Positions 38,449 to 40,936 of a stretch of DNA of 64,000 bases are shown here, piece by piece. This stretch comes from Endozoicomonas sp. OPT23 (GTDB lineage Bacteria; Pseudomonadota; Gammaproteobacteria; Pseudomonadales; Endozoicomonadaceae): the NCBI RefSeq assembly GCF_009653635.1, contig NZ_PPFD01000008.1, positions 1 to 64,000 of the forward strand, given 5' to 3'. The notes beneath the pieces were generated by a model that saw nothing but the letters and a program-made list of their open reading frames with translations, did no database searches and was not told the DNA's origin. Numbering within the stretch: the stretch's first letter is position 1; every line of letters starts with the position of its first letter. Position numbers and translations under genes: made by a program.

Positions 38449-39510
38449 CTATATCATTCCCTTTTTAATAGCGCGGGATGTTCCAGCAACATCCTTGATG
38501 TAACGGGTAAAGTCTTTATCTTTTGCCCGTCGCTCCGCCAACTGTGAGCCATTTCTGGCCTGTTCTCTCAAAAGCTTCTGGTAGTTTTTGAAGCGACGCT
38601 GCTCCAGTCTTTCCTCTTCAATTGCACGGTTCACCGCACAATCAGGCTCGGACTCATGCTGGCAGTCACTGAACCGGCAGTTTTCAGCAAGCTCAATGAT
38701 ATCGGCAAATGTTTCCTCAACGCCCTGCTCGCAACCAGCAAGTTGTAGCTCACGCATTCCCGGTGTATCGAGTAACAAACCACCATCTGACATCATATGC
38801 AGCGACCGGCCCGTTGTTGTGTGCCGGCCTTTACTATCGTCTTCCCGAATACCACCGGTTTCCTGTATGGAGCGTCCCAGCAGTGTGTTGGTGATCGTTG
38901 ATTTACCCACACCGGATGAGCCGACCAGAGCGACTGTCTGACCAGTACGACACCAGTCAGAAAGCTGTTCTTTGCAGGCTGGATCAAGGCTGTTAACCGC
39001 TACAACAGATAGCAATGAATCAAGAGCCTGAACCTGTTCTGTATAGCTCTCCGGCTCAGAACAGCAGTCTGCCTTGGTTAAAATAATAACCGGTTCAGCA
39101 CCTGCCTCTTTTGTAGCAGCCAGATAGCGTTCGATTCGACTCAGATTAAAGTCATCATTCATAGACGAAACTATAAAAACAGAATCCAGATTGGCTGCAA
39201 TAAGCTGCTCATTCACTTTGCTGCCAGCCGCCTTGCGAACAAATAGAGAGCTGCGTTCCAGCAGCCTATGAAAACTGTTGTCTTCGTTTAGTAACAGCCA
39301 GTCGCCCACAGTGATTGAAGGCATACTGTGATGAACAGGAATAGAAAGTTCACCCGCCTCTGTTGAAACTTCAAGAATCGATCGGTGAACAGCCATCACT
39401 TTTGCCGGATGTGTAGCTTCCCACTCATCCAGTGTCAGTTGCTGCTGAAAAAAAGGACGCCATCCCATTTGTTGCAGAGAAAAATGAGAAAGAGATAAAT
39501 CTGTAGACAT
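38449..39510 (-). CDS. rsgA: RsgA-type ribosome small-subunit GTPase, likely second paralogue
   Basis: The 353-residue circularly permuted GTPase has an N-terminal OB domain, G4 (TKAD), G1 (GSSGVGKST), G3 (DTPGMRE) and a C-terminal Zn-knuckle (CRFSDCQHESEPDC). RsgA assists late 30S maturation and is inhibited by ppGpp. The N-terminus (LGW-type QQMGWRPFFQQQL) matches the branch found as a second copy beside canonical RsgA in several gammaproteobacteria. ATG 39510 follows AGGGG by about 6 bases; TTG 39528 would add six residues. A structured leader with a 12-codon ORF lies upstream (39541-39655), suggesting attenuation control. Confidence 0.9.
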   Translation of the reverse strand: MSTDLSLSHFSLQQMGWRPFFQQQLTLDEWEATHPAKVMAVHRSILEVSTEAGELSIPVHHSMPSITVGDWLLLNEDNSFHRLLERSSLFVRKAAGSKVNEQLIAANLDSVFIVSSMNDDFNLSRIERYLAATKEAGAEPVIILTKADCCSEPESYTEQVQALDSLLSVVAVNSLDPACKEQLSDWCRTGQTVALVGSSGVGKSTITNTLLGRSIQETGGIREDDSKGRHTTTGRSLHMMSDGGLLLDTPGMRELQLAGCEQGVEETFADIIELAENCRFSDCQHESEPDCAVNRAIEEERLEQRRFKNYQKLLREQARNGSQLAERRAKDKDFTRYIKDVAGTSRAIKKGMI

Positions 39511-39540
39511 GGTAACCCCTGACGCCAACTCGGCATCATG

Positions 39541-39655
39541 AAAAATAAAATTCTGGGGCGTAGCCCCGGCTATCGGCCGGGCAGGAAAGAGTCTTTCTTG
39601 TTAATCAGACGTCAGCTGCCCGGAAAGGGTTGCTTACAATCATCAAATATCCTCC
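39541..39655 (-). promoter_or_regulatory. putative translation-coupled attenuator leader of the rsgA paralogue
   Basis: In reverse-strand RNA, arm A (39616-39623) can pair with arm B (39577-39584, 8 bp perfect). B overlaps the arm of a second 6-bp hairpin C (39565-39570 with 39576-39581). C in turn overlaps a third GC hairpin D (39555-39559 with 39563-39567), and D is followed by an AT-rich T-tract (aattttattttt). A:B and D are compatible; C excludes both. Arm A lies inside a 12-codon leader ORF. The remaining stretch up to 39907 shows nothing further that I can assign. Confidence 0.6.
39605..39643 (-). CDS. 12-codon leader peptide upstream of the rsgA paralogue
   Basis: An ATG at 39643 with a strong GGAGG 7-8 bases upstream opens a short frame, MIVSNPFRAADV, ending in TGA at 39605. 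Its codons 7-10 overlap arm A of the leader hairpin chain. The arrangement (strong start, tiny frame, alternative structures, main gene about 95 bases on) is that of leader peptides controlling attenuation. Expression is untested. Confidence 0.6.
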   Translation of the reverse strand: MIVSNPFRAADV

Positions 39656-39907
39656 AACTGTATTTACTGATAAGTGAGGCTGGATGATAACAGAAATGTT
39701 GAATGCAAAAGAAGGTAGGAAAAACGCTATAAATTATCCCTGAAGAGCGTTGGGTAGTATGTCGTTGTATGAACTTAAAGGTAGAAGGCTCATTGACCTG
39801 GTTAGGCTAAGCTTTCGACTATTTTCTCGACAGAAAAATTAATTTTATTTACGTCTCCATGATCTAGCCTATTTCAAACTAATAAATAATATAAAAAGGT
39901 GAATATA

Positions 39908-40936
39908 TTGAAGCGTTTACTCTTTGCTTTTGTATTTGTTTCGGTATTGCTCAAAAATCTGGCCTTTGCAGACTTTTTTGATGAAAATGAATATGAAGAC
40001 TACCGTACGGCCCCTAAAAATAAAGAATGGTTTGGTCACATCGAGAGTACTCCCTTATTAAATGAGTCATTATCCGAACTCTTTTTTGCAAAAACAGCGT
40101 ATCAGCTCTTTCTGATGGATGGAGTTGAGCATATTTCAAAAGAAGAAGGTCTCTCATATCAGGACATGCTGAATAAGTTTAAAATATCTGAGGAAATCTG
40201 GTTTCGGGATCTGTTGGCTCAGGGGGTTAGTAAAGGAATCGCTGATATGATGTGCGTTCATTTGCATGAAACTGATTTTTATTTTGGCGAAGAAGGCCGA
40301 CCTGACTGGGCTGATGATGTCGAAAAATTGCCAGATAGTAGTTGGTTTTCTGGAATGAAACTTTGGTACTTCTATAGTTGGTTTTTTAAAATTGAATATT
40401 GTAATTCTAATTGTTCATTTTCTAAAATGAAATCCTGGTATTTTTATAAAAGTTATATCGTCTATTTATGGATACAACTTCTTGGTGAAGAAGAGTTTTT
40501 ACACACATCGGAAGACAATCTGGCTATCAGAGATCGTTATGTTTCAGGTGTATCAAAATACCTGACTTTCTGGAGAAATTCGCTAAAAGGGCTGACTGCT
40601 GAGGAACTCTATACTTCCTGGAGAAATAGAGCTAAAGGGCTGCCTGCTAAAGACCGCTTTTTCTCGCTTTGGAATAAAGAAGCAGGGCTCATCAATACAG
40701 AGTTTCTGAGAATGACTGTGGACCATGTGATCATTTCAACTTTAGCAGTGGAAAGTGCTGAAAGAGTTCAGGTTGATTACGAAGAACAGAGAAAAGAGTT
40801 GGAATTAAAACTAGATCTAGTTGGTGATTCGGGCTCTTTTATAGAAAGTTATAAGTGGTTTAACTTTATGTTGCCAAGACACGAATTTTTTAGTCGACAG
40901 AATAAAGCTCTGAAAGAGATGGGACTGGGCTTTTAG
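39908..40936 (+). CDS. Exported protein with internal repeats, unknown function
   Basis: A TTG at 39908 preceded by AAGGTGA gives MKRLLFAFVFVSVLLKNLAFA, a classical signal peptide; a GTG at 39899 overlaps the ribosome site and is less likely. The mature part of about 320 residues is rich in Trp, Phe and Tyr. It has two internal repeat sets: a pair around residues 148-185 (WFSGMKLWYFYSW / SFSKMKSWYFYKS) and a triple of about 17 residues near 218-262 (FWRNSLKGLTAEE / SWRNRAKGLPAKD / LWNKEAGLINTE). The gene is visibly more AT-rich than its neighbours, which suggests acquisition. It may be a lineage-specific secreted factor. Confidence 0.72.
   Translation: MKRLLFAFVFVSVLLKNLAFADFFDENEYEDYRTAPKNKEWFGHIESTPLLNESLSELFFAKTAYQLFLMDGVEHISKEEGLSYQDMLNKFKISEEIWFRDLLAQGVSKGIADMMCVHLHETDFYFGEEGRPDWADDVEKLPDSSWFSGMKLWYFYSWFFKIEYCNSNCSFSKMKSWYFYKSYIVYLWIQLLGEEEFLHTSEDNLAIRDRYVSGVSKYLTFWRNSLKGLTAEELYTSWRNRAKGLPAKDRFFSLWNKEAGLINTEFLRMTVDHVIISTLAVESAERVQVDYEEQRKELELKLDLVGDSGSFIESYKWFNFMLPRHEFFSRQNKALKEMGLGF

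Follow-up and report, generated by a model that had tools for sequence, protein, structure and literature searches.

The window analysed here, a whole stretch of 64 kb from Endozoicomonas sp. OPT23, carries on its minus strand the gene rsgA2 (38449-39510), which encodes a 353-aa GTPase of the RsgA family as judged from Pfam, TIGR00157 and a protein tree. The product matches PF03193 (RsgA_GTPase) at 167.6 bits (cut-off 30, E 3e-49) and TIGR00157 at 150.8 bits (cut-off 100), and solved RsgA chains match it down to E 2e-33; its score of 163.3 bits against NF008931 lies below the cut-off of 360. The canonical RsgA of the same genome is encoded elsewhere and is 33% identical to RsgA2 over the matched part; inspection by eye of the region upstream of this canonical gene showed no comparable leader. 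In a tree of 32 proteins, from which L093 and L101 were left out as too short, a split of 24 versus 8 rows (support 100/99) separated RsgA2 from its own-genome canonical copy, the smaller side comprising L002 from the own genome, L145 and L146, all of them second copies, and another five rows called canonical on account of their low similarity. The 24 rows that group with RsgA2 span Pseudomonadota, Bacillota, Actinomycetota and Myxococcota, and two actinobacterial proteins fall in this clade on long branches. By these sequence comparisons RsgA2 is a paralogue in a clade apart from canonical RsgA, not a canonical orthologue. An initial annotation, made from the letters of the window, had named an RsgA paralogue as the target of a regulatory leader, and both the domain scores above cut-off and the separate clade agree with that identification. 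In one alphaproteobacterial genome (G664, the source of locus L021), a Firmicutes rsgA2 query matched a single RsgA-family gene at E 1e-10, rsgA2 itself, and this genome may rely on rsgA2 alone. The rsgA2 match of a congener (L054, G004:C2:3742337-3743365) has one internal TAA; this copy may be decaying, or the match may run past the end of the gene.

Ahead of rsgA2, again on the minus strand, a GGAGG Shine-Dalgarno site (39651-39655) precedes a leader ORF of 12 codons and a TGA stop, MIVSNPFRAADV (39605-39643). Two RNA arms lie within the ORF: arm 1', AACCCTT, at codons 5-7 (39625-39631), and arm A, CCGGGCAG (39616-39623). Downstream follow arm B, CTGCCCGG (39577-39584), which can partner A or C; arm C, GCCGGGGC (39563-39570), which can partner B or D; and the 3' strand of hairpin D, GCCCC (39555-39559), predicted to act as an anti-Shine-Dalgarno when B occupies C. 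The tail after hairpin D, AGAATTTTATTTTT (39541-39554), leads to a further hairpin, E (39521-39537), directly 5' of the rsgA2 Shine-Dalgarno AGGGGTT (39514-39520), here called SD2, which is the target of both 1' and D. The ORF, its GGAGG site and the tail were read from the sequence; the assignments of 1', B, C, D and SD2 also draw on the pairing tests described below. Arm A (39623-39616) and arm B (39584-39577) form eight perfect pairs; in hairpin C, GCCGGG (39570-39565) pairs with CCCGGC (39581-39576); and in hairpin D, GGGGC (39567-39563) pairs with GCCCC (39559-39555). The A:B, B:C and C:D pairings are mutually exclusive. The initial annotation had located the GGAGG site, the 12-codon ORF, A:B, hairpins C and D and the T-tract (the tail AGAATTTTATTTTT) correctly to the base, and its picture of a leader ORF overlapping arm A, with alternative A:B, B:C and C:D pairings, is borne out by the sequence. 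The pairing of 1' with SD2 (39631-39625 with 39520-39514) and hairpin E were absent from it.

Folding of the leader RNA, a check proposed with the initial annotation, recovered A:B and D in a 91-nt stretch (z -2.90; 1 of 200 shuffles equally stable), while a longer stretch of 153 nt was less exceptional (z -1.69; 9 of 200 shuffles equally stable). No Rfam family matched the leader at gathering score in the 64-kb window, and at a lax threshold the best match over the leader reached 21.3 bits against a gathering score of 90. Six related rsgA2 loci compared with Rfam gave only a purine riboswitch, which lies near a Firmicutes rsgA2 locus (L151:1165-1266). The peptide MIVSNPFRAADV contains no run of codons for one amino acid of the kind seen in leaders of amino-acid biosynthesis genes, and its codons after the third vary between species. 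A divergent 345-aa ORF of unknown function (39899-40936, plus strand) begins about 250 nt away from the leader and has the same intergenic region.

Within the genus, rsgA2 was present in 4 of 10 genomes (E 1e-80), and it was found in 50 of 293 genomes of the order and 17 of 369 genomes of the class; with Firmicutes queries (thresholds 1e-75 and 1e-70), it turned up in 100 of 250 genomes from the class to which L035 belongs and in 38 of 113 from that of L028, of which 30 of 101 places and 30 of 38, respectively, were examined. Upstream of rsgA2 in many relatives lie a start like ATGATTGTA, an arm A that carries CGG at codon 8 or close to it, the arms B, C and D, and then an SD2 of the type CAGGGGTT. 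A detector blind to these motifs found a Shine-Dalgarno site with a short ORF upstream of rsgA2 in 60 of 77 deduplicated, mainly gamma- and alphaproteobacterial loci against 23.8 expected, although some of its matches are clearly accidental ORFs and it missed at least one true leader with a weak Shine-Dalgarno (L010); the other 17 of these 77 orthologue loci had no such ORF. Applied to Firmicutes rsgA2 loci, the same detector returned an upstream ORF (uORF) in 48 of 55, with 22.7 expected. Counted from the detector list, an M[IS][VA] start is present in 43 of the 77 loci, or in 43 of 87 when ten more distant gammaproteobacterial rsgA2 loci are added; examined separately, none of these ten had a convincing leader.

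A covariance model (R1), built from 18 leaders with A:B as its sole structure, gave 68 bits for this leader in its own genome and 13.9 for the next match. Across 369 genomes of the class it gave five matches of 68-81 bits, all directly before rsgA2, and across 293 genomes of the order all 14 matches at E 1e-4 (13 genomes) were directly before rsgA2; the OPT23 leader itself is counted in both samples, and several matched leaders are among the 18 that built the model. Fifteen weak matches (19-28 bits) in the class genomes lie away from rsgA2, and the one that was read, L128, looks spurious. No strong R1 match was found before a gene other than rsgA2 in the own genome or in these order and class genomes. 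Genome G181 has two almost identical rsgA2 copies (L059, L104), each with one leader. There are 131 records of plasmid copies of rsgA2. In three annotated plasmid copies the distance from the preceding gene to the rsgA2 start is 5-73 nt, too short for this leader to fit. A mobile resistance context was considered and set aside, as the three annotated plasmid neighbourhoods contain no antibiotic-resistance gene by annotation; annotated there are genes for acetyltransferases and regulators, together with an integrase and an IS3 transposase in L206 and an arsenic efflux gene in L207. Genes of the acetyltransferase kind (GNAT, N-acetyltransferase) are seen repeatedly in the vicinity of rsgA2, by annotation at L205-L207 and by a guess from eye in the upstream flanks of L020 and L025. 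At L021 and L026 (Rhodobacteraceae), about 100-250 nt upstream of rsgA2, what we take by eye to be a signal-recognition-particle RNA gene lies close before the leader.

The start of the leader peptide is nearly fixed. Among 39 leaders, codon 2 is ATT in 34, AGT in three, ATA in one and TTT in one, and codon 3 is GTA in 27, GTT in ten, GTC in one and GCA in one, while codon 4 is any of 18 different codons. A conserved structured 5' region that serves mRNA stability or as a protein-binding site, possibly for RsgA2 autoregulation, and has no part in ribosome sensing would leave unexplained the leader ORF with its Shine-Dalgarno, the Met-Ile-Val (MIV) at its beginning and the way in which arm A is in register with the start codon, and we regard such an explanation as highly improbable. 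The fixed MIV is not in itself proof of a stall and could instead favour initiation on the leader.

The arms were compared by duplex energy in the same 39 leaders, each arm being paired with its own partner or with partners swapped between species over 20,000 permutations. Own partners were clearly preferred for A:B (z -8.0) and C:D (z -9.1), both values being inflated because B and D were mostly picked as the best partners of A and C. Preference was also seen for B:C (z -3.1), D:SD2 (z -4.0) and 1':SD2 (z -4.2), the 1' and SD2 windows being set by fixed position; six unmodelled control pairings gave z between -1.6 and +1.6. An earlier version of the 1':SD2 comparison with 40 rows agrees (own mean -6.58 versus swapped -5.49, sd 0.22). 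These permutation figures are not exact probabilities, since the species are related. When each clade was represented by one row (n=30), significance held for all five pairings, and one control (1':B) reached z -1.9. In a core of 29 leaders A:B, C:D and 1':SD2 (z -3.8) were still significant; B:C (z -1.6) and D:SD2 (z -1.0) were not, because those arms hardly vary there. The 39 leaders were hand-chosen for recognisable A-D arms, and the arms of 14 rows were set by hand where automatic finding misplaced them or failed. Near-duplicates (for example L056, L069, L070 and L104; L081 beside L084; L115 beside L113) and leaders with other or unclear wiring (for example L021, L026, L037, L073, L088, L097, L099, L101-L103 and L110) were left out, and L066, L093 and L094 were dropped after arm finding.

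Individual leaders illustrate the co-variation. Arm 1' and SD2 change together as AAGCC/GGCTT (L011), ATACCC/GGGTAT (L016), CCACCC/GGGTGG (L054) and AGAACC/GGTTCT (L109), and C, D and SD2 change jointly as GGGTTTCC/GGAAACCC/GGGTTT (L079) and GGGATTC/GAATCCC/GGGAT (L113). A hairpin directly before SD2, the counterpart of E, occurs in 19 of the 39 leaders, with 3.1 expected from mononucleotide shuffles. Comparison of orthologous leaders, a check also proposed with the initial annotation, found the leader peptide and the arms conserved in relatives, with own partners beating swapped ones. Since the same arms recur in relatives and fit their own partners better than cross-species swaps, the leader elements at the OPT23 locus are, on this comparative evidence, well beyond chance. 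By the own-versus-swapped comparison, the gammaproteobacterial leader has RNA arms, 1' and D, that pair with the rsgA2 Shine-Dalgarno. The leader, its arms and their co-variation, its specificity for rsgA2 and its conserved MIV are all documented by sequence.

These pairings bear on whether the leader controls transcription or translation. In the initial annotation, hairpin D and its T-tract formed a terminator; a ribosome over arm A would let C form, prevent D and allow read-through into rsgA2. At the OPT23 locus the T-tract is present, and D with its tail is among four terminator-like sites found in a scan of the 64-kb window, although 2.9 such sites are expected. Among the 39 leaders, at least five T in the 8 nt after D occur in 14, a mild excess over a background of 16% of positions, and the tract is missing in 25, including that of the congener L005. 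D as a terminator was rejected as a general feature because the T-tract is not conserved, OPT23's own species being excepted from this rejection. The co-variation of D and 1' with SD2 is not needed by an attenuator, and transcription attenuation of this kind is unlikely. Since the 3' arm of D co-varies with SD2 across the 39 leaders, control of rsgA2 is probably translational.

How a translating ribosome might act on SD2 was modelled with a 29-nt ribosome footprint masked at each codon of the leader in turn, the unpaired probability of SD2 being computed in the 39 leaders. The values are thermodynamic; large multiloops are poorly modelled and co-transcriptional kinetics are left out. Mean accessibility was 0.142 in naked RNA, 0.231, 0.285 and 0.259 with the P site at codons 1-3, 0.105 at codon 4, and 0.083, 0.082, 0.069, 0.068, 0.071, 0.074, 0.078 and 0.111 at codons 5-12. 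At codon 2, accessibility exceeded the mean of codons 6-10 in 37 of 39 leaders and that of naked RNA in 31, and was below the naked value in seven. The better of codons 2 and 3 exceeded codons 6-10 in all 39 and naked RNA in 32; in the other seven (L008, L012, L015, L055, L084, L100, L119) codons 2-3 were no more open than naked RNA. For the OPT23 leader the values are 0.03 when naked, 0.39, 0.41 and 0.48 at codons 1, 2 and 3, 0.10 at codon 4 and 0.01-0.07 later. When the segment from stop codon to SD2 was shuffled (117 control sequences), the mean profile was flat at 0.14-0.18; codon 2 exceeded the late codons in 44 controls, exceeded naked RNA in 62 and was below it in 38. Codons 2-3 surpassed both the naked and the late states by a positive margin in 31 of 39 real leaders compared with 40 of 117 controls, and one of the 117 reached the margin of the OPT23 leader. 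The open range shifts with the assumed leading edge of the footprint and stays within codons 1-4. The largest drop above 0.1 comes after codon 2 or 3 in 27 of the 31 leaders that have one, eight of the 39 showing no such drop. An earlier run with 31 leaders and another mask gave the same tendency with weaker contrasts and exceptions such as L005. In the model, SD2 opens mainly when the ribosome is at roughly codons 1-3, which encode the conserved Met-Ile-Val, and the presence of a ribosome over arm A is predicted to close rsgA2.

This predicted direction is the reverse of that in the initial annotation, in which a ribosome over arm A turned the gene on: SD2 is least accessible, at about 0.07-0.08, with A masked (codons 5-11). 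The general idea that the progress of a ribosome controls a ribosome GTPase survives; a conserved terminator and the annotated direction are not supported. The direction also matters for a comparison with the translational attenuators of erm and cat genes, in which a leader peptide is coupled to mutually exclusive hairpins and a sequestered Shine-Dalgarno. The rsgA2 leader has all of these parts, and a stall with arm A covered (codon 5 or later) would open the gene in a classical switch of the erm type. The number of arms, however, places SD2 in the closed state when A is covered, and computed accessibility is lowest from codon 5 on, the direction thus being predicted to be reversed here; a classical switch is improbable. 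Opening of the Shine-Dalgarno upon covering of the first arm, as an erm-type mechanism has it, was not seen in the computation.

The reading that we favour, with a probability of roughly 0.55, is that the uORF drives a switch in translation by way of two locks on SD2. The switch would sense ribosomes stuck in early elongation, and its output would be an auxiliary 30S GTPase of the RsgA type. When the leader is free of ribosomes, A:B and C:D would form and arm 1' (codons 5-7) would pair with SD2, closing the gene. With ribosomes running to the stop codon, A would be covered, B would pair with C, and the freed D would pair with SD2, again closing it. A ribosome held on Met-Ile-Val would cover 1' and leave A exposed, such that A:B and C:D would stay, D would remain engaged and SD2 would be free. 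Stalling at MIV is our inference, as is its cause, for which A-site or early-elongation inhibitors or other translation stress are candidates; RsgA2 may then protect, clear or recycle 30S subunits.

The Firmicutes leaders appear to be wired differently. Those of L028, L179, L188, L194 and the like have a GGGGAGG- or GGGAGG-like arm A, an arm B with CCTCCC, and an SD2 that is GGGAGG, GGAGG or AGGAGG; since A and SD2 are alike and B has CCTCCC, B can pair with either. In such leaders SD2 is predicted to be open until the ribosome reaches or passes a conserved peptide motif and more closed afterwards. The scan covered 26 hand-chosen Firmicutes leaders, mostly of three-arm types, and in 17 of the 25 with a drop above 0.1 the largest drop fell between two codons before and one codon after the motif end. 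Accessibility falls well before the motif in L176, L180 and L183, and L035, L182, L185 and L186 are closed when naked. Fifteen bacillar leaders were put in, of which seven could be scored; most of these change little with ribosome position (little change or no clear step in L148, L151, L155, L156, L161 and L165), and L175 closes only late.

The motif itself resembles that of the gammaproteobacteria. Of 48 uORF peptides from Firmicutes, 34 contain the gamma-type pair [IS]V (shuffles: mean 16.3, maximum 26) and 33 a wider motif, [EDQ][IS][VAT] (shuffles: mean 5.1, maximum 14); the wider motif was picked after looking, and many of the 48 peptides are closely related. Serine at the motif position is encoded by TCG in L179-L186 and by AGT in the gammaproteobacteria and bacillar L148; because these codons differ, the residue itself is probably constrained, at least in part. 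The near-invariant ATT in the gammaproteobacteria could also reflect needs of the RNA or of initiation.

These leaders are also relevant to an alternative in which the leader senses failed initiation. An untranslated leader, as in a shortage of mature 30S subunits, would keep A:B and C:D and leave the gene open, and full translation would shut it, providing direct feedback on 30S maturation. The predicted closure of SD2 once a ribosome has passed codon 4 in the gammaproteobacteria fits such a sensor, as do the three-arm Firmicutes leaders L028, L194, L196, L202 and L203, which are open when naked (0.74-0.99) and fall at or past the motif. Against this, naked gammaproteobacterial RNA is more closed than RNA with a ribosome at codon 2 in the 31 of 39 leaders noted above (seven opposite), 1' co-varies with SD2, the four Firmicutes leaders just named as closed when naked do not fit, and a conserved MIV would not be needed. 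We regard a sensor of failed initiation as unlikely. Returning to the stall-sensing switch, it can be extended, tentatively and at somewhat short of even odds, to rsgA2 as a whole: an undescribed, cross-phylum family of stress-induced 30S GTPases with lineage-specific RNA wiring and a common uORF stall motif, [M/E/D/Q]-[I/S]-V. The gammaproteobacterial RNA would then act as a band-pass, closed when untranslated, closed when translated through, and open only at a first-codon jam.

The leader and its RNA fold suggest an alarm for jammed protein synthesis. If the proposal is true, the jamming of early elongation is coupled directly, in at least two phyla, to one copy of a ribosome-maturation GTPase, and the uORF control of ribosome GTPases known from hflXr extends to the small-subunit factor RsgA. 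The RNA logic would separate the states of no ribosome, a ribosome stuck at the start and a passing ribosome, and is concrete and testable. The conserved Ile/Ser-Val motif would offer a handle on the stall signal, and the role of RsgA2 in 30S protection, clearing or recycling would become approachable through the inducer. The initial annotation knew of no leader of this kind for RsgA, and none was found in the open-licence PubMed Central literature, judged from titles and abstract starts among the matches listed. The terms rsgA and leader peptide came together in the open-licence literature only through the title of a reference, and the main text of a paper on tetracycline in S. meliloti (PMC12218461) does not mention GTPase, rsgA, engC or yjeQ.

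The WblC/WhiB7 response of Streptomyces coelicolor to antibiotics that target translation counts a pair of RsgA/EngC paralogues, SCO6149 and SCO5211, among its listed paralogue pairs (PMC7157823). Control there is by a transcription factor (PMC7157823); the likeness is one of RsgA paralogy and implies no placement in the rsgA2 clade. The rsgA2 switch appears comparable to two further systems, which, like the Streptomyces pair, serve here as analogies. The first is hflXr (rli80) of Listeria, a duplicated gene for a ribosome-associated GTPase that is preceded by a short uORF with an RLR motif, by alternative RNA structures and by a transcription terminator, and is induced by lincomycin and erythromycin (PMC6310831). 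The likeness lies in the duplicated GTPase, the uORF and the alternative structures, the other genomic copy in Listeria being one that plays no part in resistance (PMC6310831). The rsgA2 leader differs in pairing with a Shine-Dalgarno rather than forming a terminator, in having MIV or [E/D/Q][I/S][V/A/T] in place of RLR, and in its target, an RsgA-type GTPase. Antibiotic induction is a feature of hflXr (PMC6310831), whereas the rsgA2 leader is known here from sequence and computation. The second is toiL-topAI of E. coli, whose uORF pairs with the downstream ribosome-binding site; that site is freed when a ribosome is held on the uORF, the start codon included, and the authors' data point to tetracycline and retapamulin as holding ribosomes at that codon (PMC12121999). 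In toiL (PMC12121999), as in the proposed 1':SD2 pairing, uORF sequence base-pairs with the ribosome-binding site of the gene that follows; the target gene and the arms differ. A stall anywhere on toiL is thought to induce (PMC12121999), whereas in the rsgA2 leader opening of SD2 is predicted for the first codons alone, since passage of the ribosome would close a second lock, B:C with D:SD2.
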